The translations under genes were made by a program, and so were the position numbers. Below, one piece after another: positions 24,835-34,222 of a stretch of 64,000 nt of DNA; the stretch's first letter is position 1, and each line of letters begins with the position of its first letter. The notes beneath the pieces were generated by a model, which was not told where the DNA came from, ran no database searches, and worked only from the letters and a program-made list of their open reading frames with translations. This DNA comes from Aromatoleum toluvorans (GTDB taxonomy: Bacteria; Pseudomonadota; Gammaproteobacteria; Burkholderiales; Rhodocyclaceae), in NCBI RefSeq assembly GCF_012910905.1, contig NZ_WTVN01000025.1:1-64000 (forward strand), read 5' to 3'.

Positions 24835-25488
24835 TCACTTGTCGGCGGTCGCGATGCCGACGCGGATCGCGTAGCGCACGAGGCCGGGGATGTCGTGGAT
24901 GTCGAGACGCTCCATGAGCTTGGTGCGGTGGGTTTCGACGGTCTTGGTGCTCAGGTGCAGGCGCGCGGCGATGTCCTTGGTGCTGAACCCTTCGACGATG
25001 AGCTGGAGGATCTCGCGCTGGCGCGGAGTCAGCTGCACCGCGGTGCCCTGCTCGTCGCCGACCCGGTTCATGTAGCTTTCGACGACCTGCTTCGAGATCG
25101 GCGGGCTCAGGTAGGTCTCGCCGTTCATGACGGCCTTCAGCGCGAGTTCGAGCTCCAGCGTCGCGGAGTCCTTGAGCAGGTAGCCGGCCGCGCCCGAGCG
25201 CAGCGCCTGCAGCACGTATTCCTCGCTGGCGTGCATCGACAGCATGATGATGCGGATCTTCGGGTGGCTCTTGCGGATGCGCGCCGTGGCTTCGAGGCCG
25301 TTGAGGCCGCGCATCGCGATGTCCATCAGGATCAGGTCGGGGTTGTGGGTGCGCAGCAGGGCGATCGCCTCGCGGCCGTCGCTCGCCTCGGCCACGACCT
25401 CGACGCCGCCGAAGCTCTCGAGCAGCGAACGGATGCCGGCGCGCACCAGGGTGTGGTCGTCGGCGACGAGCACGGAGATCGGTTTCAT
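24835..25488 (-). CDS. NarL/LuxR-type response regulator
   Basis: A 217-residue two-component output protein. The receiver domain (1-120) has the acidic pair D10-D11 and phospho-acceptor Asp56 (LILMDIAM), with Lys in LLKDSATLE. The LuxR helix-turn-helix occupies about 150-210 (LTPRQREILQLIVEGFSTKDIAARLHLSTKTVETHRTKLMERLDI). The ATG overlaps the stop of the kinase gene upstream (ATGA, 4 bp), showing translational coupling. The HisKA_3 kinase at 25485-27590 is therefore its likely cognate partner. Last gene of a four-gene signalling operon. Confidence 0.96.
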   Translation of the reverse strand: MKPISVLVADDHTLVRAGIRSLLESFGGVEVVAEASDGREAIALLRTHNPDLILMDIAMRGLNGLEATARIRKSHPKIRIIMLSMHASEEYVLQALRSGAAGYLLKDSATLELELALKAVMNGETYLSPPISKQVVESYMNRVGDEQGTAVQLTPRQREILQLIVEGFSTKDIAARLHLSTKTVETHRTKLMERLDIHDIPGLVRYAIRVGIATADK

Positions 25489-27590
25489 CGCATTTCCTCC
25501 GCATGTCGGTTCTCGGTGCGCCGCCGCCGCGGGGGCAGTGGGAAGGCGGCGCGGATCTCGGTGCCCGCCCCCGGCTCGGCGCTGATTTCGAGGCGGCCGC
25601 CGACGAGCATGACGCGTTCCTGCATGCCGAGCAGACCGACGCTGCCGCCCTTGGCCGCGAGCCCGCGCGCGGTCTGCACGTCGAAGCCGCCGCCGTCGTC
25701 GCGCACGCTCAGGTGCAGCTCGCCGTCGCGCTTGCCGAGAAAGATCCACACCTGCTGCGCCCGCGCGTGGCGCACGACGTTGGTCAGCGCTTCCTGCGCG
25801 ACGCGGAAGCACGCGGTCTCGATCGCCGGGTGCAGGCGTCGCGGCAGCGGGCTCGCAACGAAATGCGGGGTGATGCCGGAAATCTTGGCCTGGCGGTCCA
25901 CATGCCAGCGCAGCGCCGCAACCAGCCCGAGCTCCTCGAGCTGCGGCGGGCGCAGGTCGAGCGACAGGCTGCGCACCTGGCTCAGGGTGTGTTCGACGAT
26001 ATGCACGCACTCCTTCAGGCGGCGCGTCTGATCGTCCGACTCGGCCTGCTGCAGTGCGAACTCGATGTTGATCTTCATCGCCGTGAGCGCCTGGCCGATT
26101 TCGTCGTGCAGTTCGTGCGCGATGCGGCGGCGCTCCACTTCCTGGGCTTCGAGCACGCGCTGCGACAGCAGCTGCATCCGCTGGCTCGCCTCCTCGAGGC
26201 GCGTCTTCGCACGCTCGCGCTCGGTGACGTCGCGGATCGCGGCCGTCACCAGCAGCCCTTCCTCCGCCTCGAGCGGGCTGAGGCTGATCTCGACCGGAAA
26301 CTCTCCGCCATCCCTGCGCCGGCCGCGCAGTTCGAGGCCGAGCGCGCCCATCGGCCGGTTCGTGGGCGCGCTGCCGTAGTGGTGGCGGTGCTGCGCATGC
26401 TGCCCGCGCAGGCGCTCGGGCACGAGGATTTCCAGCGATTCGCCCAGCAGTTCGCCGCGGGCGTATCCGAACAAGGCTTCGGTCTGCGAGTTCGCAAAGA
26501 TGATCCGGCCGCCAGCATCGGCCACGACCATCGCGTCGGGGGCCGCCTCGAGCAGGCCGCGGAACTTGCGCTCGGCCCGCAGGCGTTCGCCCACCTCGCG
26601 CTGCAGCTTCGCGGCGTGCCGCTCGAGCAGCGCATACATCTGCGCGTTCTCGTAGCCGATGATGGCCTGCGCCGCGAGCGTCAGCGCGGTGCGCTCGTCC
26701 GCTTCGCCAAAGGCCGCGGCACCGAGCTTGTCGCCGAAATACAGCCAGCCGTAGCGCCTGCGCGTCGACACCAGCGGCACGCCGAGGAAGGCGGAAAGGG
26801 GCGGATGGCCGGGCGGCAGGCCGGCCGCGATCGCGGCGGGTTCGGCGAGCCGCACCGGGCGCCTGTCCTGCATCAGGCGCGCGAGCAGCGCGGCAGGCGC
26901 GACCGGCGGCTGCGCGAGGCCCGCGGGCAGCGGCAAGTCGACCGAACTGGCCACGTAGTGGCGCAAGCGCTCCGCATCCCGTCCGAAGACGGCCACGGCA
27001 GCGTAGCGGGTTCCCATCAGCTTGCGCGCGGCGTGACAGAACAATTCCATCAATTGCTGCGGGTCGCGTTCCGCGACCAGATCGAAACCGAGTTCGAGCA
27101 GCGCGGCGAGCTGCAGGCTGACGCCTTCGAGGTTGAGCAGCTGCTCGGCCGCCGATTCGGGTTCGAGTCGGGTCTCTTCAGGTTCGGGCTCCGTGGCAAC
27201 GGCCGCGGCCGGCGCCGAAGCATCCGCGCCGAGCGCGCCCGCGACGGCGTCGAGAATCTCCTGCGGCCGGCTCGGCTTCGACAGCACGCGCGTGACGCCC
27301 ACCCCCTGCGCCAGCGTCCGGGCCTCGCCGAGCCGGTAGGTCGCGGTATAGAAGATCACCGGAATGCCTCTCAGGGCCGGATCGGCGCGCATGTGCTCCA
27401 CCATCGTGCAGCCGTCCATGCCGGGCATCAGGATGTCGCTGATCACGAGCTCGGGCCGCTCGGCGCGCGCCAGTTCGAGTCCCTGCAGGCCGTCGGCGGC
27501 CTCCAGCAGGCGGTGGCCGGCGTAGCCGAGCAGGGTCACGAGAAACTGCCGGTTCGTGGGGCGGTCGTCGACGACCAGGATCTTGCTCAT
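25485..27590 (-). CDS. hybrid sensor kinase: REC-GAF-PAS-HisKA_3-HATPase
   Basis: A 701-residue soluble kinase. An N-terminal receiver (1-120, Asp52 in VISDILMPGMDG) comes first. Then a GAF-like domain (about 165-315), a PAS domain (about 338-460; APDAMVVADAGGRIIFANSQ), the HisKA_3 H-box RRRIAHELHDEIGQALTAM with His492, and a NarX-type ATPase (VVRHARAQQVW, DDGGGFD, GLLGMQERV). No membrane segment is seen, so it senses a cytoplasmic signal and/or is gated by phosphorylation of its own receiver, perhaps from the PAS-array kinase upstream in the operon. Both ends overlap neighbours by ATGA (27587-27590 and 25485-25488). Confidence 0.94.
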   Translation of the reverse strand: MSKILVVDDRPTNRQFLVTLLGYAGHRLLEAADGLQGLELARAERPELVISDILMPGMDGCTMVEHMRADPALRGIPVIFYTATYRLGEARTLAQGVGVTRVLSKPSRPQEILDAVAGALGADASAPAAAVATEPEPEETRLEPESAAEQLLNLEGVSLQLAALLELGFDLVAERDPQQLMELFCHAARKLMGTRYAAVAVFGRDAERLRHYVASSVDLPLPAGLAQPPVAPAALLARLMQDRRPVRLAEPAAIAAGLPPGHPPLSAFLGVPLVSTRRRYGWLYFGDKLGAAAFGEADERTALTLAAQAIIGYENAQMYALLERHAAKLQREVGERLRAERKFRGLLEAAPDAMVVADAGGRIIFANSQTEALFGYARGELLGESLEILVPERLRGQHAQHRHHYGSAPTNRPMGALGLELRGRRRDGGEFPVEISLSPLEAEEGLLVTAAIRDVTERERAKTRLEEASQRMQLLSQRVLEAQEVERRRIAHELHDEIGQALTAMKINIEFALQQAESDDQTRRLKECVHIVEHTLSQVRSLSLDLRPPQLEELGLVAALRWHVDRQAKISGITPHFVASPLPRRLHPAIETACFRVAQEALTNVVRHARAQQVWIFLGKRDGELHLSVRDDGGGFDVQTARGLAAKGGSVGLLGMQERVMLVGGRLEISAEPGAGTEIRAAFPLPPRRRRTENRHAEEMR

Positions 27591-28009
27591 GAGCCGTCGC
27601 CGGGCTGGACCGGTGCCTTGCGTCCGCTGCCCGTCCGCCGCCTGCGGTGCAGGAAGGTTTCGAGCTGACCGACGAAAGCGCGCGGCACGATGGGTTTCGG
27701 GATGTAGCCGTCGAAGCCGGCGGCGAGCACCCGTTCCTGGTCACCGACCATCGCGTACGCGGTCACCGCCACCAGCGGTATCGGTTCGAGGCGCGGGTCG
27801 CCCTTGAGGCGGCGCGCGACCTCGTAGCCGTCGATGCCGGGCATCTGGATGTCGCAGACGATCAGGTCGGGTTTCTCGCGCTCGGCGGCCTCGATGCCGG
27901 ATATCCCGCTCTCGGCGGTGATCGGCGTGTGGCCGAAGGCGGTGATGAGATAGCTCATCAGGTTGCGGTTCGGCGCATTGTCCTCGATGACCAGGATGCG
28001 TGCCCCCAT
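27587..28009 (-). CDS. stand-alone CheY-like receiver protein
   Basis: A 140-residue single receiver domain: acidic pocket ED near residues 9-10, phospho-acceptor Asp53 in LIVCDIQMPGIDGYEV, Thr in VAVTAYAM, Lys in YIPKPI. A basic, proline-rich tail follows from about residue 122. It starts 9 bases after the stop of the PAS-array kinase and its stop overlaps the start of the REC-GAF-PAS kinase (ATGA), so it is embedded in the operon. It is likely a DivK-like phosphotransfer or adaptor element between the two kinases. Confidence 0.94.
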   Translation of the reverse strand: MGARILVIEDNAPNRNLMSYLITAFGHTPITAESGISGIEAAEREKPDLIVCDIQMPGIDGYEVARRLKGDPRLEPIPLVAVTAYAMVGDQERVLAAGFDGYIPKPIVPRAFVGQLETFLHRRRRTGSGRKAPVQPGDGS

Positions 28010-28018
28010 GGCGTTCGC

Positions 28019-31000
28019 TCACTCGTGCGCGGGACTCGCGGCGATCGCCACCGAGTGCCGTGCCCGGCGGTCGCCGTGCACCGACTCGGCGTCGCCCGTC
28101 GCCCGGTGCAGCGGCAGGAACAGGCTGAAGCGGCTGCCGCGGCCGTACTCGCTCGCGAATGCGATGTGCGCCCCGATCAGTCCGGCCAGGCGCTGGCACA
28201 GGTGCAGCCCGAGCCCCGTGCCTTCCTCGCGATTCACGGTGCCGACCTGCTGGAACGCCTGGAAGAGCTTGGCCTGATCCTCGGGCTGGATGCCGACCCC
28301 GGTATCGACGACATCGACTCTGGCCATCGCCTGTCCATTCTCCTCGCATTCAGCCACTTCGACGCGCACGCTGCCGCGTTCGGTGAACTTGACCGCGTTG
28401 TTCGCGAAGTTGATCAGGATCTGGCTGAAGGCCCGCCGATCGGTGTGCACAACCACGCGCCGCCGCGGCTGCTTGACGGCGAAGCGGATGCCACGGCTCT
28501 CGGCAAGCGGTGCAAGCGCGGCGGCGACCTCGTTCACCACTTCCTGGCAGACCACCGGGGTCGGGTGGAGTTCCACCTTGCCGGACTCGATCTTCGCGAG
28601 GTCGAGCAGGTCGTTGATCAGCGACAGCAGATGCTGTGCGCTCATCTCGACGGTGCTGAGCTGCGTCTGCTGGTCCTCGGTGAGCGGTCCGGGCAGTTCC
28701 ATCAGCAGCGTGCCGGTGTAGCCGATGATCGCATTGAGCGGCGTGCGCAGCTCGTGGCTGATGCTCGCAAGGAAGCGGTCCTTGGCGAGGTTGGCGTTTT
28801 CCAGCTCGAGGTTCTTTTCCTGCAAGGCCTGCTCGAAGATCGTGCGCTCGGTGATGTCGCGCGCGGCGGCGAACACCCCGCGCAGCTCGCCGGACTGGTC
28901 GGTGAAGGTCGTCGCGTTGTAGCTCACGACGGTCTGGTTGCCATCCTTGTTCCGCACCGTGAGCTCGTAGTTCGTCACGCGCCCCTCCTGCAGCACCAGC
29001 CGGATCGCCTCGTCGGCCCGCGCCGGCTCGGTGACATAGTTCCGGCACGGCGTGCCGATCAGCTCCTCGCGCGTGCAGCCGGTCAGGATCTCCATCTGCT
29101 GGTTGACGTCGCTGATCACGCCCAGCGCGTCGGTCGTCATCATCGCGTCGATGTTCGATTCGATCAGCGAGCGCGTGTAGATCTGCTGGGCGCGCAGCTG
29201 CCCTTCGAGTTCCTTCTGCGCCGTGATGTCGCGCGCCACGGCGAGGATGCCCAGCGGGGCACCGGCCGCATCGGTGAACACGCCGGCGTTGAAGCTCACC
29301 ATCAGGCGGCGGCCCGCGCGGGTCACGAGGACCAGCTCGTAACCGATCACGCGCCGTTCGGCGAGCGTCTGCACGACGGCGGCGCGCGCGCGGCCCGGCT
29401 CGGTGAAGTAACCCTGGAACGGCGAGTTCAGCAGATGCTTGCGGGTGAAGCCGGTAAGCCGCGTCGCCTCCTCATTCACGTCCGTGATGAGGCCGTCGGG
29501 GGCAATCGCAAACAGCGCATCGGGCGAAGCTTCGATCAGCGAGCGGTTGTAGGCCTGCTGCTCGACGACCTGGTTCTGCAGCCGCGACTGCTCGGAGACG
29601 TCGCGCGCGGACGCGAAGATGCCGGCAATCCGCCCGTCGGCGCCGCGGAACACCGAGGCGTTGACCGAAACGGTCGCCTTGCGCCCGCTCTTCGCGCGCA
29701 GCACCAGCGCATAGTTGGTGACCACGCCCTCGGCCAGCGTGCGGCGCAGGCCCAGGTCCGCGCTCGCCGGATCGCTGAAATACTGCTTGAACGGCGTGCC
29801 GACCAGTTCGCCGCGCGGAGTGCCGGACAGGCGGCACATGCTCTCGTTGACGTCGGTGATGAAGCCCTCGGGGTCCACGGTGACGAGGCCGTCGACCGAA
29901 GCCTCGATGAGGCCGCGCAGGTAGGTCTGCTGCTCGCGCAGCTGCTCCTCGAGGCGCACGCGGTCGGTGATGTCGCGCGCCGACGCGAAGATGCCGCGCA
30001 CGAGCCCGGCCGCATCCTTGAACACCGACGCGTTGAACGACACCTGCAGTTCGCGCCGCGAGCGCGCCACCAGGGTCAGCGCCAATTCCGTGACGTAGCC
30101 GACCTCGAGCGTCTGCTCGACGCCCGCGCGCGCCTGCTCGGGCGACGTGAAGTAGTCGGAGAACGGCGAACCGAGCAGCTCCGTACGGCTGTAGCCGGTC
30201 ATGTGGCACATGCGGTCGTTGACGTCGGTGATGAAGCCCTCGGGGTCCACCGTCACGAGTCCGTCCACGGACGATTCGATGAGGCCGCGCAGGTAGCCCT
30301 GCTGCTCGCGCAGCTGCTCCTCGAGTTTTTTCTGCTCGGTGATGTCGCGCGCCGCGGCGAACACCCCCTGCAGCTTGCCGGCCTGGTCGTAGAAGGTCGT
30401 TGCGTTGTACGCGACACGCGTCGTGTCGCCCTTCTTCGAGCTGACCGTGAGCTCGTAGTTGGTTACGCGCCCTTCCTGCAGCACCTGCCGGATCGCCTCC
30501 TCGGCGCGCGCCGCTTCGGTGAAGAACTGCTTGAACGGCAGGCCGATGAGTTCTTCGCGGGCGCAGCCGGTGAGCGTCTCCATCTGGCGGTTGACGTCCG
30601 TGATGATGCCCAGCGGGTCGGTGGTCATCAGGCCGTCGATGTTCGACTCGACCAGCGAGCGGGTGTAGAAATGCGAGTCCTGCAGCTTTTCCTCGAGCTG
30701 CTTGTGCGCCGAGATGTCGCGCGCGGAGGCGAAGATGCCGCGCACGTTGCCGGCGGTGTCGCGGAACACCGCGGCGTTGAGCGAGACGGGCAGCTCGCGG
30801 CCGTCGGCGAGCTGCAGCGTGAGCACGTAGTTGGCGACCGAGCCTTCGCGGAACGTGAGCCGCACGCCTTCGGCCGCCCGTTCCGGGTCGCGGAAATAGG
30901 CGGGGAACGCGGAACCGACGAGCTGGCTGCGCCGCCGGCCGACGAGGCGGCACATCGTCTCGTTCACGTCGGTGATGCGCATCGCCTCGTCGACCGTCAC

Positions 31001-32602
31001 CAGCCCGTCCACCGAGGCTTCGATGAGACCGCGGTTGTAGGCGCGCTCGTCGGCGAGCTGGGTCTGCAGGCGCGCCTGCTCGGTGATGTCGCGCGCCGAG
31101 GCGAAGATGCCGCGCACCGCCCCCGCCGCATCGCGGAAGATCGCCGCGTTAAGCGACACCAGGCGCTCGCGCCCGTCCTGGCCGAGCAGCCTGAGCTCGT
31201 AGTTCGTCACTGCGCCGGTATCGAGCGTCAGGCGCACGCCCTCGGCGGCCCGCTTGTGGTCGGCGAAATAGTCCGGGAAAGGCGAACCGATGAGCGCCTC
31301 GCGCGCGTAGCCGGTCAGGCGGCACATGCTCTCGTTGACGTCGGTGATCACCATCAGCGGATCGACGATGATCAGGCCGTCGAGCGAGGCCTCGATCAGG
31401 CCGCGGTTATAGGTGCGCGCCTCGGCGAGCTGCGCCTGCAGGCGCGCCGGTTCGGTGATGTCGCGCGCGGACGCGAAGATGCCGCGCACGTCGCGCGACG
31501 GGTCGCGGAACACCGAGGCGTTGAACGACACCTGCAGCTCGCGGCGGTCGCGCGTCGCAAGGGTGAGCACGTAGTCGGTGACCACGCCCTTGTCGAGGGT
31601 CTCGCGCACGCCCGCCTCGGCTGCCTCGGCGTCGACGAAGTAGTCCGCAAAGGGCGTGCCGACGAGGTCCTCGCGCCCGTAGCCGGTCATGCGGCACATC
31701 TGCTCGTTCACGTCGGTGATCACGCCGGCCGCGTCGACCGCGATCAGGCCGTCGACCGACGCTTCGATCAGGCCGCGGTTGTAGGCCTCCGATTCGCGCA
31801 ACTGATACTCGAGCTTCTTCTGCTCGGTGATGTCGCGCGCCGACGCGAACACGCCCTGCAGCTTGCCGTGCGCATCACGGAAGGTTGCGGCGTTGTACGA
31901 CACCAGCGTCGTGCGGCCGTCGCGCGCGCGCGCCGTGAGCTCGTAGTTGGTCACGCGGCCGTGCTGTAGCGCCCGCTTGATGCCGGCCTCGGCGCGCCGC
32001 GGATCAGTGAAGTAGAGCTTGAACGGCGAGCCGATCAGCTCCTCGCGGGTATAGCCGGTGAGGGCTTCCATCTGCTGGTTGAGGTCGGTGATGACGCCCA
32101 GCAGGTCGGTCGTCATCAGCGCGTCGATGCTCGATTCGATCAGCGAGCGGGTGTAGAACTGCGTCGCCTGCAGCTCGCCGGCGAGCCGGCTCTCTTCGGA
32201 GATGTCCTTCGAGATCAGCAGATAGCCGTTCACCTTCCCGTTGCCGTCGTGGCGCGGCGTGAGCGTCACGCGTGCGGTGAACTGCTCGCCGCTCTTGCGC
32301 ACCCGCCGCACCGTGCCTTCCCACTTGCCGTCACGCAGCGCGGCGCGCAGGATCTGCTGCGGCAGGCCGGCACGGACGTCTTCGGGGGTATGCAGCATCG
32401 CGCCCGCCGCCCGTCCGACGACATCCTCGGGCGCATAGCCGTAAAGCCGCCGGGCACCTTCGTTCCAGAGCACGATCTTGCCCGAGAGATCCTGGCCGAT
32501 GATCGAATACTCGGTCGACGCCTGCAGGATGCTGGAGATGAATTCCACTGCACTGCCGGCGTCGCCGACGATGTTGCGGTCGAACAGCTGGGTCATGGTC
32601 AT
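28019..32602 (-). CDS. giant PAS-array sensor histidine kinase (ten PAS domains)
   Basis: A 1,527-residue soluble kinase. A distinct first PAS (about 25-145) is followed by nine PAS repeats of exactly 124 residues (about 150-1265). Next come a classical HisKA domain (FLASISHELRTPLNAIIGY, His near 1283) and a HATPase domain (NFANNAVKFTERGS, DTGVGI, GTGLGLHLCQ), with a short basic tail. There are no membrane helices, so input is cytoplasmic (redox, gas, flavin or haem ligands are typical for PAS; none can be read here). It lacks its own receiver but is followed after 9 bases by a free receiver gene. First gene of the operon 32602-24835. Such an indel-free array is unusual. Confidence 0.95.
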   Translation of the reverse strand: MTMTQLFDRNIVGDAGSAVEFISSILQASTEYSIIGQDLSGKIVLWNEGARRLYGYAPEDVVGRAAGAMLHTPEDVRAGLPQQILRAALRDGKWEGTVRRVRKSGEQFTARVTLTPRHDGNGKVNGYLLISKDISEESRLAGELQATQFYTRSLIESSIDALMTTDLLGVITDLNQQMEALTGYTREELIGSPFKLYFTDPRRAEAGIKRALQHGRVTNYELTARARDGRTTLVSYNAATFRDAHGKLQGVFASARDITEQKKLEYQLRESEAYNRGLIEASVDGLIAVDAAGVITDVNEQMCRMTGYGREDLVGTPFADYFVDAEAAEAGVRETLDKGVVTDYVLTLATRDRRELQVSFNASVFRDPSRDVRGIFASARDITEPARLQAQLAEARTYNRGLIEASLDGLIIVDPLMVITDVNESMCRLTGYAREALIGSPFPDYFADHKRAAEGVRLTLDTGAVTNYELRLLGQDGRERLVSLNAAIFRDAAGAVRGIFASARDITEQARLQTQLADERAYNRGLIEASVDGLVTVDEAMRITDVNETMCRLVGRRRSQLVGSAFPAYFRDPERAAEGVRLTFREGSVANYVLTLQLADGRELPVSLNAAVFRDTAGNVRGIFASARDISAHKQLEEKLQDSHFYTRSLVESNIDGLMTTDPLGIITDVNRQMETLTGCAREELIGLPFKQFFTEAARAEEAIRQVLQEGRVTNYELTVSSKKGDTTRVAYNATTFYDQAGKLQGVFAAARDITEQKKLEEQLREQQGYLRGLIESSVDGLVTVDPEGFITDVNDRMCHMTGYSRTELLGSPFSDYFTSPEQARAGVEQTLEVGYVTELALTLVARSRRELQVSFNASVFKDAAGLVRGIFASARDITDRVRLEEQLREQQTYLRGLIEASVDGLVTVDPEGFITDVNESMCRLSGTPRGELVGTPFKQYFSDPASADLGLRRTLAEGVVTNYALVLRAKSGRKATVSVNASVFRGADGRIAGIFASARDVSEQSRLQNQVVEQQAYNRSLIEASPDALFAIAPDGLITDVNEEATRLTGFTRKHLLNSPFQGYFTEPGRARAAVVQTLAERRVIGYELVLVTRAGRRLMVSFNAGVFTDAAGAPLGILAVARDITAQKELEGQLRAQQIYTRSLIESNIDAMMTTDALGVISDVNQQMEILTGCTREELIGTPCRNYVTEPARADEAIRLVLQEGRVTNYELTVRNKDGNQTVVSYNATTFTDQSGELRGVFAAARDITERTIFEQALQEKNLELENANLAKDRFLASISHELRTPLNAIIGYTGTLLMELPGPLTEDQQTQLSTVEMSAQHLLSLINDLLDLAKIESGKVELHPTPVVCQEVVNEVAAALAPLAESRGIRFAVKQPRRRVVVHTDRRAFSQILINFANNAVKFTERGSVRVEVAECEENGQAMARVDVVDTGVGIQPEDQAKLFQAFQQVGTVNREEGTGLGLHLCQRLAGLIGAHIAFASEYGRGSRFSLFLPLHRATGDAESVHGDRRARHSVAIAASPAHE
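28808..32155 (-). repeat. nine tandem 372-bp PAS repeats with a four-unit super-period
   Basis: The conserved Tyr codon opening each repeat (YTR/YNR/YLR) is at 32155, 31783, 31411, 31039, 30667, 30295, 29923, 29551 and 29179 (minus strand): every step is exactly 372 bp. Units 1, 5 and 9 share one type (YNATTF/YNAATF, QGVFAAARDITEQKK); the others share a second type (NASVF/NAAVF, RGIFASARDIT). Units 2/6 and 4/8 also match each other specifically. The array therefore reads A-B1-B2-B3-A-B1-B2-B3-A with a 1,488-bp super-period. Confidence 0.93.
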
Positions 32603-32731: not shown

Positions 32732-34222
32732 TTATGGCAGGTGGTGTTCGAGATAGGCCGCGTACAGCTGGCAGCGCGGCCGCGCGTCGTGGGCCGAGTT
32801 GCCGGCGAGGATGCCGGCGCTGCGCAGGCGGTAGAAATGCTGCGCCGACGGGCTCGAACGCCCGCGCAGGACCTCGCGCACCGTCTCGCCGAGGCCGCGG
32901 TCCGGATGCAGCGCGAGCAGCAGCCGGCGCAGATGCTCGCCGAACGGGCCGTCATCGAGGCAGCTCTGCTGCTCCAGCGCCGCAAGACCGACACGCGCGG
33001 TCGCCATGCGGTGCAGGCCGTTGCGCACGAGGTAGGGCTGTCCGCCCACAAGGCGGTAGAAACCCGCGAGTTCCGCATCGCTGCGCAGCGGCGCGCCATA
33101 GCACTGGTTGAGGTGCAGCACCTGCTCGAAGTTGAAGTCTTCGAGCGCCAGCCGGGTACCGACGTTGAACGGCGACGGCTGAAGGTCCTCCCTCAGCAGG
33201 TGGGCTTCGGTGGCATAGGCGATCGCCACCGTCAGGCGCGACCACGCCCCGTTGCGGTCGATCGCGCGGGCGTTGTGCCAGGTGCGCAGCAGGCCGAACA
33301 CCTCGTCGGCGAACTCGCATCCGATCAGCCGATCGGCCTCGTCGATCGCCCACACCAGTGGTCCGGTGATGCGCTCGAGGACTTCCTGCAGCATGAAGCG
33401 TTCGAAATTCCGATTGGGCCCGAGCTGCGGATCCCAGTCCGTCTCCGGCCGGACCGCGAGGCCCAGCTGGTCGGCGAGCATGCGCGCGAGCGACTGGTAC
33501 AGGTGATCGAGCGATGCGAGCTGACTCGCGTTAAGCGTCTGCAGGTCGGTCCACACCACGCGCCGTTCGGCCGCGCGGGCGCGATGCACACCCTGCGCGA
33601 GCAGCGAGGTCTTGCCCACCTGCCGCGCGCCCTTGAGCAGCACGAGACTGTCCTGGCGCGCGACGGCGGCATGGAACTCGGCGTCGACGGCGCGCTCGAC
33701 GTAGAACGGCGAGTCGACCTGCACCGCGCCGGTCGGCGGCTCCAGCGCGGTGCGCGCCGGTTCGTCGAGCGGCGGCACGGCGACCTCCACGTCCAGGACG
33801 TCCCCGCGGCCGGCCATGGCGCCTTCGGCGAGCAGGCGATGCACCGCCGCGCACAGCATCTCGCGATGCGCCTCGATCGGCACGGGATGGGCATCGACCC
33901 ACTGGCACGTGCCGAGGTAGTAGCGCAGACGCTGCGGCACCACGTCCTCGACGCGCACCGGCAGGATCGACACCGCGTGCTCGGCCGCCAGGCTCAGCTC
34001 GCGCTTGACGTGCAGCGAGCGGTCGGAGTGGCTCGAAATGATCACCAGCAGCACGCGGCTGCGCGGGATCGCCTCGATGATCGTCTCGTCCCAGTGCTGG
34101 CCGCCGGGAATGTCGCGCGGCGCGATCCAGCAGGGAATGCCGTCCTGTTCCAGGTTCGCGCAGATCGTCGCGGCGTGGCCGCGGTCGCGCTGGGAATAAC
34201 TGATGAAAACCTGATGGTCCAT
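32732..34222 (-). CDS. TIR-domain protein with AAA-like ATPase domain
   Basis: A 496-residue protein. Residues 1-140 form a TIR_2 domain (VFISYSQRDRGHAATICANLEQDGIPCWIAPRDIPGG; VLLVIISSHSD; Glu75 in HVKREL, at the place of the catalytic Glu of NAD-cleaving TIRs). Residues about 165-490 form an AAA-like domain of the PF14516 kind: Walker A GARQVGKT (198-205) and Walker B LVWAIDEADRL (289-299), with a C-terminal helical part. This is the layout of STAND-like sensors that assemble on a trigger and switch on a TIR effector. It lies between the SLOG-like membrane gene (174 bases upstream) and the PAS-array kinase on the same strand. NADase activity and a defence role are inference. Confidence 0.9.
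   Translation of the reverse strand: MDHQVFISYSQRDRGHAATICANLEQDGIPCWIAPRDIPGGQHWDETIIEAIPRSRVLLVIISSHSDRSLHVKRELSLAAEHAVSILPVRVEDVVPQRLRYYLGTCQWVDAHPVPIEAHREMLCAAVHRLLAEGAMAGRGDVLDVEVAVPPLDEPARTALEPPTGAVQVDSPFYVERAVDAEFHAAVARQDSLVLLKGARQVGKTSLLAQGVHRARAAERRVVWTDLQTLNASQLASLDHLYQSLARMLADQLGLAVRPETDWDPQLGPNRNFERFMLQEVLERITGPLVWAIDEADRLIGCEFADEVFGLLRTWHNARAIDRNGAWSRLTVAIAYATEAHLLREDLQPSPFNVGTRLALEDFNFEQVLHLNQCYGAPLRSDAELAGFYRLVGGQPYLVRNGLHRMATARVGLAALEQQSCLDDGPFGEHLRRLLLALHPDRGLGETVREVLRGRSSPSAQHFYRLRSAGILAGNSAHDARPRCQLYAAYLEHHLP

Follow-up and report, generated by a model that had tools for sequence, protein, structure and literature searches.

The histidine kinase encoded at positions 28019..32602 of the window carries nine PAS units of identical length in front of its kinase core. 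The window is the whole stretch of Aromatoleum toluvorans DNA that was analysed, 64,000 nucleotides in length. The same nine units, in the same order and with the same spacing, occur in kinases of very different bacteria; the array therefore looks old and conserved, and not like a fresh expansion. The kinase gene, its domains and the genes downstream of it are the following:

24835..25488, minus strand: response regulator with a LuxR-type (GerE) DNA-binding domain (Pfam)
25485..27590, minus strand: second kinase, REC-GAF-PAS-HisKA_3-HATPase_c (Pfam)
27587..28009, minus strand: stand-alone receiver (REC), likely partner of the array kinase; Response_reg is the sole Pfam family
28019..32602, minus strand: histidine kinase gene, 1527 aa, PAS, nine PAS units, HisKA and HATPase_c (ORF, Pfam)
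28106..28441, minus strand: HATPase_c, residues 1388-1499 (Pfam PF02518, above cut-off)
28580..28786, minus strand: HisKA (DHp), residues 1273-1341 (Pfam PF00512, above cut-off)
28754..28831, minus strand: linker between the end of unit 9 and the catalytic His, His offset 18, modelled as one helix into DHp
28808..29179, minus strand: PAS unit 9 (type A)
29180..29551, minus strand: PAS unit 8 (outlier)
29552..29923, minus strand: PAS unit 7
29924..30295, minus strand: PAS unit 6
30296..30667, minus strand: PAS unit 5 (type A)
30668..31039, minus strand: PAS unit 4
31040..31411, minus strand: PAS unit 3
31412..31783, minus strand: PAS unit 2
31784..32155, minus strand: PAS unit 1 (type A)
32156..32539, minus strand: PAS at the N-terminus, of another type than the nine units, residues ~22-149 (Pfam; pitch 128 to unit 1)

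The Tyr codons that mark the units start at 32155, 31783, 31411, 31039, 30667, 30295, 29923, 29551 and 29179 on the minus strand (residues 150 to 1142), and all eight spacings between them equal 372 bp, or 124 residues. These positions confirm the initial annotation of the sequence, which had placed nine PAS units at a 372-bp pitch without indels exactly at 28808-32155. Its count of nine is correct for the array, but the upstream tenth PAS of another type was missed; Pfam detects PAS in ten stretches of the kinase. When the protein is compared with itself, identity reaches 39% at a shift of 124 residues; the mean of 1180 shifts is 7% (SD 2.4), and shifts of 123 and 125 give 5%. The nine units align without gaps over 124 columns, and repeat finding on the DNA returned the same 372-nt period. 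The catalytic His is residue 1283, within the motif SHELRTP. The kinase has no convincing transmembrane stretch, as the highest 19-residue hydropathy value, 1.66, lies within a PAS core.

Relatives were collected by looking for six 8-residue words from the kinase in the genomes of 84,980 species, each species being represented once. The scan yielded 43 loci; arrays of other lengths containing one of the words were also detectable, and close relatives are favoured. The 34 complete arrays comprise 32 of these loci, the window (L001) and the congener G013 (L052), while the other eleven (L038-L042, L044, L046 and L048-L051) were left out because of contig ends or frame breaks. One of the latter, on the chromosome of Polaromonas sp. 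P2-4 (L051, 7463-10747), contains nine units with frame shifts between most of them; the spacing is usually 2 nt short, near unit position ~107, which looks like a systematic sequencing error. Exactly nine units are present in 32 of the 34 complete arrays, ten in L032 and eight in L047, the last two being counted here but excluded from the alignment of 32 arrays. The spacing is 124 aa in 263 of 272 cases, 125 in six, and 123, 128 and 117 in one case each. The N-terminal PAS precedes unit 1 at a pitch of 128 or 129 in 28 of the 34 complete arrays; no such domain adjoining unit 1 was detected in the other six. Tuning of the input by repeat number, which had been considered possible, is contradicted by the fixed count. 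An assembly error is very unlikely to have produced the repeats, since the single-contig congener G013 carries the same array, 97% identical to that of the window.

The units cluster by position across phyla. A tree of 306 units requires 31 changes of position label, compared with 222.8 in shuffles, and a tree of 108 units requires eight, the minimum possible; the unit trees do not resolve position 1 from position 5. As judged from this clustering, the common ancestor already had nine distinct positions, which the later spread of the gene has left unhomogenised, and their number, order and pitch have been kept. A recent tandem expansion is at odds with both the grouping by position and the constancy of the count. 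In a comparison of 31 loci, the average identity at each unit position is 73-78%, and 39-48 of its columns are invariant. For one close species pair, the window and G013, omega is 0.04-0.15 for each unit and 0.17 for the kinase core; every one of the nine units is thus under purifying selection in this pair, and none is decaying.

In histidine kinases, the sensor regions are usually regarded as changing fast and the cores as constant. The array family reverses this pattern: its sensor part is kept more strictly than the kinase core. The array is 69-78% identical to that of the window in 30 relatives (98% in G013), compared with 38-65% for the core (94% in G013), and differences from the window amount to 7 gaps per 8995 substitutions in the array and 69 per 3195 in the core. 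For the 32 aligned arrays, all 496 pairwise comparisons show higher conservation in the array than in the core. The distance from the array to the catalytic His divides the cores into two classes, with 18 residues in 23 of the 32 kinases and 11 residues in nine. Array identity is 75.8% across these classes and 76.8% and 77.9% within them, whereas core identity falls to 44.2% across the classes from 62.7-63.3% within. A single clade of the array-bearing cores was rejected with an AU p of about 1e-56 in a quick tree that gave long-branch warnings; six truncated or frame-broken kinases were classed as array-bearing in this tree, and four long-branch rows were left out. Neither core class was recovered as a single clade in the core tree, and for neither was a single clade rejected (AU 0.264 each). 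The trees thus place the array on two classes of core that do not form one clade. In the array tree, the 11-residue class is compatible with a single clade (AU 0.403), so that one exchange may suffice. The genome of the window also encodes a kinase without the array (L002, C29), which has a different sensor and is 55% identical over residues 1217-1498; the REC adjoining it is 50% identical to the REC of the window.

A REC gene on the same strand, between 400 bp before and 1500 bp after the end of the kinase ORF, accompanies 28 of 31 nine-unit relatives. The first downstream REC is 46-61% identical to that of the window in the 18-residue class, apart from L013 (31%) and G013 (94%), and 37-43% identical in the 11-residue class; three loci of the 18-residue class have no downstream REC within reach. 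By these identities, the kinase core and the receiver seem to have changed as if together. Directly upstream of the kinase, at 32732-34222 on the minus strand, the window encodes a TIR + AAA_35 protein with weak matches to defence-related TIR models. Among the loci searched, this gene is a neighbour of the kinase in two cases only, the window species and G013.

In the 32 aligned arrays, indels of one residue are confined to two loops, at unit positions 78-81 and 95. The ten-unit array L032 has an insert of four residues, placed by eye in the first loop (78-81), and a step of 117 that lacks seven linker residues. Its tenth unit belongs to a different subtype (the 'LIEASLDPLVTI' kind, seen also in L053 and L062) and stands seven residues closer than the rest. 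L053 and L062, two further arrays of the subfamily, have a pitch of 117; each also has a spacing of 252, within which lies a PAS of another type. From the last unit to the catalytic His, 58 of 60 related kinases have 11 (10 kinases), 18 (31) or 25 (17) residues; the remaining two have 20 and 22, and their unit matches are weak (31 and 37 bits). Many kinases with a single unit of this PAS subfamily (L064-L072, L074-L076 and others) have the His exactly 25 residues past it. The steps in linker length, 11/18/25 and the pitch of 117, are thus multiples of seven, counted over rows that are not independent; the 60 kinases are mutually related, so the independent heptad events are few. Hydrophobic periodicity in the linker is strongest at 4.5, at the edge of the scan, followed by 3.4-3.5. 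By comparison, then, the changes in length comprise one-residue indels in loops, seven-residue steps in linkers and a single insert of four residues.

The initial annotation had offered strong structural selection for a rigid rod of constant pitch as one explanation of the strict unit length. The changes by seven near helices and the restriction of one-residue indels to loops support selection on pitch in part, but a control narrows the argument: 36 PAS units of the same subfamily from outside nine-unit arrays also show 0 gaps in 1734 substitutions. The fixed length of the core thus belongs to the subfamily in general, which makes a constant pitch weaker evidence for a rod. Length constancy was accordingly not retained as proof of a rod, and a fixed register is supported by the linker steps alone.

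AlphaFold2 models of the array, calculated on 32 arrays, contain the PAS fold and its secondary structure in every unit, and place a helix close to every unit boundary or spanning it. No rod emerged from these monomer models, which have a mean pLDDT of 77, a pTM of 0.24, low linker confidence and no global geometry. In a model of units 8-9 with the kinase (510 residues, pTM 0.42), one helix (234-283) runs from unit 9 through the catalytic His. In Foldseek, the array model matched chains of PpsR best, with ~19% sequence identity and low global TM-scores.

We propose, with moderate confidence, that the kinase forms a dimeric, parallel PAS column whose helices are in register with the kinase helix, which agrees with the arguments made for YF1 and S-helices (PMC6798134, PMC1592074, PMC3949515). 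Two chains would assemble in parallel, with each PAS domain standing on the C-terminal helix of the preceding unit, and the exit helix of unit 9 would continue into the DHp helix bearing the catalytic His. A change of state in one or a few of the PAS domains may twist or shift the column along its length, and this movement would toggle the enzyme between kinase and phosphatase activity. Linkers would tolerate whole heptads only because heptads keep the helix-to-helix angle constant. The phosphate probably passes to the adjacent REC protein, and this REC, the downstream REC-GAF-PAS kinase and the LuxR-type regulator may constitute a relay. More tentatively, and with considerable reservation, we suggest that the array is a self-standing, transferable column with fixed stages, which is conserved above the level of the enzyme, has spread over about ten phyla and is joined to different kinase-receiver pairs through junctions that differ by one heptad, the outputs being exchangeable in register.

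Other explanations of the array have to be weighed against this proposal. The array might be a stacked multi-sensor, also mentioned in the initial annotation, in which several or all of the nine PAS domains have ligands or cofactors of their own and their inputs are combined by the kinase. This would be compatible with the column, and it is in keeping with the conservation of every unit position and with the differences between positions; many PAS domains, however, are interaction or transmission modules, as described in the available text of PMC3949515, and we regard multiple sensing as rather unlikely. We are similarly doubtful that selection does not act on the array as such, the PAS subfamily fixing the core length and nine units persisting as diverged units cannot recombine. 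The gap-free units outside the arrays agree with such an account, as does the shortness of the exact matches between window units, the longest in-register run being 35 nt and most being below 27. The fixed number of nine may indeed be due in part to units too diverged to recombine. This account nevertheless leaves unexplained the seven-residue steps in the linkers, the purifying selection on every unit and the higher conservation of the array than of the kinase. A passive scaffold or spacer, which positions the kinase or recruits partners and passes little signal, could combine high conservation with no known ligand; we consider it improbable, as a tether accounts less well than allosteric coupling for the seven-residue steps at the kinase junction and for the helix predicted to continue into DHp.

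The remaining alternative to the proposed column concerns the origin of the array. The initial annotation had described a four-unit block, A-B1-B2-B3, present twice and followed by a final A, and had offered recent block duplication with drift as a cause; the duplication might also be older and date from the family ancestor. Units 1, 5 and 9 are of one type, with 65-69% aa identity to one another and 42-57% to the other units, and they form a clade across species with support of 98/99 in a 108-row tree and 100/98 in a 63-row tree. The other pairs fared worse. Units 2 and 6 are moderately supported (92/95) in the 63-row tree but form no clade in the 108-row tree, and {3,7} and {4,8} were not recovered, though not rejected either (absent from the 63-row tree, with AU values of 0.449 and 0.476). 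In the 108-row tree, units 3 and 4 are sisters (87/77), unit 7 branches deepest among the non-A units and unit 8 groups with units 1, 5 and 9 (98/94). Within the window, the pairing 2/6, 3/7, 4/8 ranks 7th of 15 by protein identity and 5th by DNA. The resemblance of unit 4 to unit 8 does not hold: they are 48% identical, and the closest to unit 4 is unit 3 (64%). Unit 8 is an outlier, with 47-54% identity to units 1-7 and 42% to unit 9. A permutation test for a periodicity of four gave p = 0.005, with three of the six within-class pairs, the most alike, coming from units 1, 5 and 9. The super-repeat pattern is symmetric, so that counting the units from the opposite end makes no difference. A recent duplication is refuted by the grouping of units by position across phyla, by the near-saturated third codon positions, which are 45-72% identical between different window units, and by the fixed count of nine. 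For an ancient duplication, the tree constrained to the full scheme (54 rows, two constraint trees, 124 columns) was 14.6 log units worse than the free tree, with an AU p of 0.186; by this test, such an event is neither shown nor excluded. Taking both ages together, we judge block duplication improbable.

The distribution of the array is uneven. Only one of 16 genomes of the same genus, G013, contains a match at E 1e-100 (97%), and among 398 genomes from the phylum of the window only the window's own matches at E 1e-150. The 29 rows with a phylum label span ten phyla; most are MAGs and possibly misbinned. Named strains with the array are Aquabacterium terrae, Sediminibacterium and Chitinophaga; the cultured Aquabacterium terrae and Chitinophaga sp. 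CF118 have intact copies with nine units. The array tree fits the phyla in part, with 14 changes against a minimum of 9 and a shuffled mean of 19.8, and a single clade of the five Acidobacteriota-labelled rows was rejected (p = 0.0015). The operon is absent from the 17 kb beyond the MFS gene in three congeners (G010, G002 and G015). Compared with G002, the window is variable from about 24800 to 56700; the G002 homologues of window positions 23.2-24.8 kb and 56.7-63.5 kb lie ~9 kb apart, compared with 32 kb in the window. A tblastn search of 72,556 plasmid records at a strict threshold of E 1e-100 gave no match. Horizontal transfer of the array kinase is the natural reading of these sequence data, although no vehicle was found. 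On the same comparisons, the family is old, rare and patchily spread.

Poly-HAMP arrays are long tandem arrays of one signalling domain; HAMP domains form coiled-coil bundles, whereas PAS domains are globular units connected by helices. Soluble multi-PAS histidine kinases (PAS S-box with HisKA/HATPase_c) share with the array kinase the domains, their order, the core and an adjoining REC gene. They differ from it in that the family described here has nine units of near-equal length, fixed in number and order across labelled phyla, and a sensor conserved more strongly than the core. Kinases with a single unit of the same PAS subfamily are gap-free against the window units and have His offsets of 18 or 25. 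They were found in 25 other genomes of 299 searched, mostly with one detected unit per protein; 14 candidates per genome were scored, so arrays may be undercounted. The available text of PMC6798134 describes a heptad-dependent effect of linker length in YF1 as well as regularly spaced tandem PAS/GAF domains, and mentions tandem HAMP. Seven-residue linker steps at the PAS-DHp junction are common to the array kinases and the PAS/LOV kinases covered there, YF1-type and others, whose linkers are coiled coils; the array kinases have nine stages, and their sevens are known from comparison of natural proteins. Helices joining successive PAS domains, as in the array model, are also present in the PpsR triple-PAS protein and in tandem PAS domains connected by S-helices, according to the available parts of PMC3949515 and PMC1592074, the latter describing S-helices between PAS domains; PpsR differs in having three PAS domains and a DNA-binding output. 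No description of a kinase family with nine or ten PAS domains was found in the open-access literature searched. A match to 'nine PAS domains' in the accessible text of PMC10468136 uses these words in another sense. Within the open-access literature, the fixed nine-stage form, the conservation of the array above that of the kinase and the change of output by one heptad look new.

With nine stages, two exchangeable outputs and steps of seven residues, the family would provide a long-distance test of the helix-register model of signalling. It also raises the question of what maintains nine PAS domains here when one or two are enough in other proteins.
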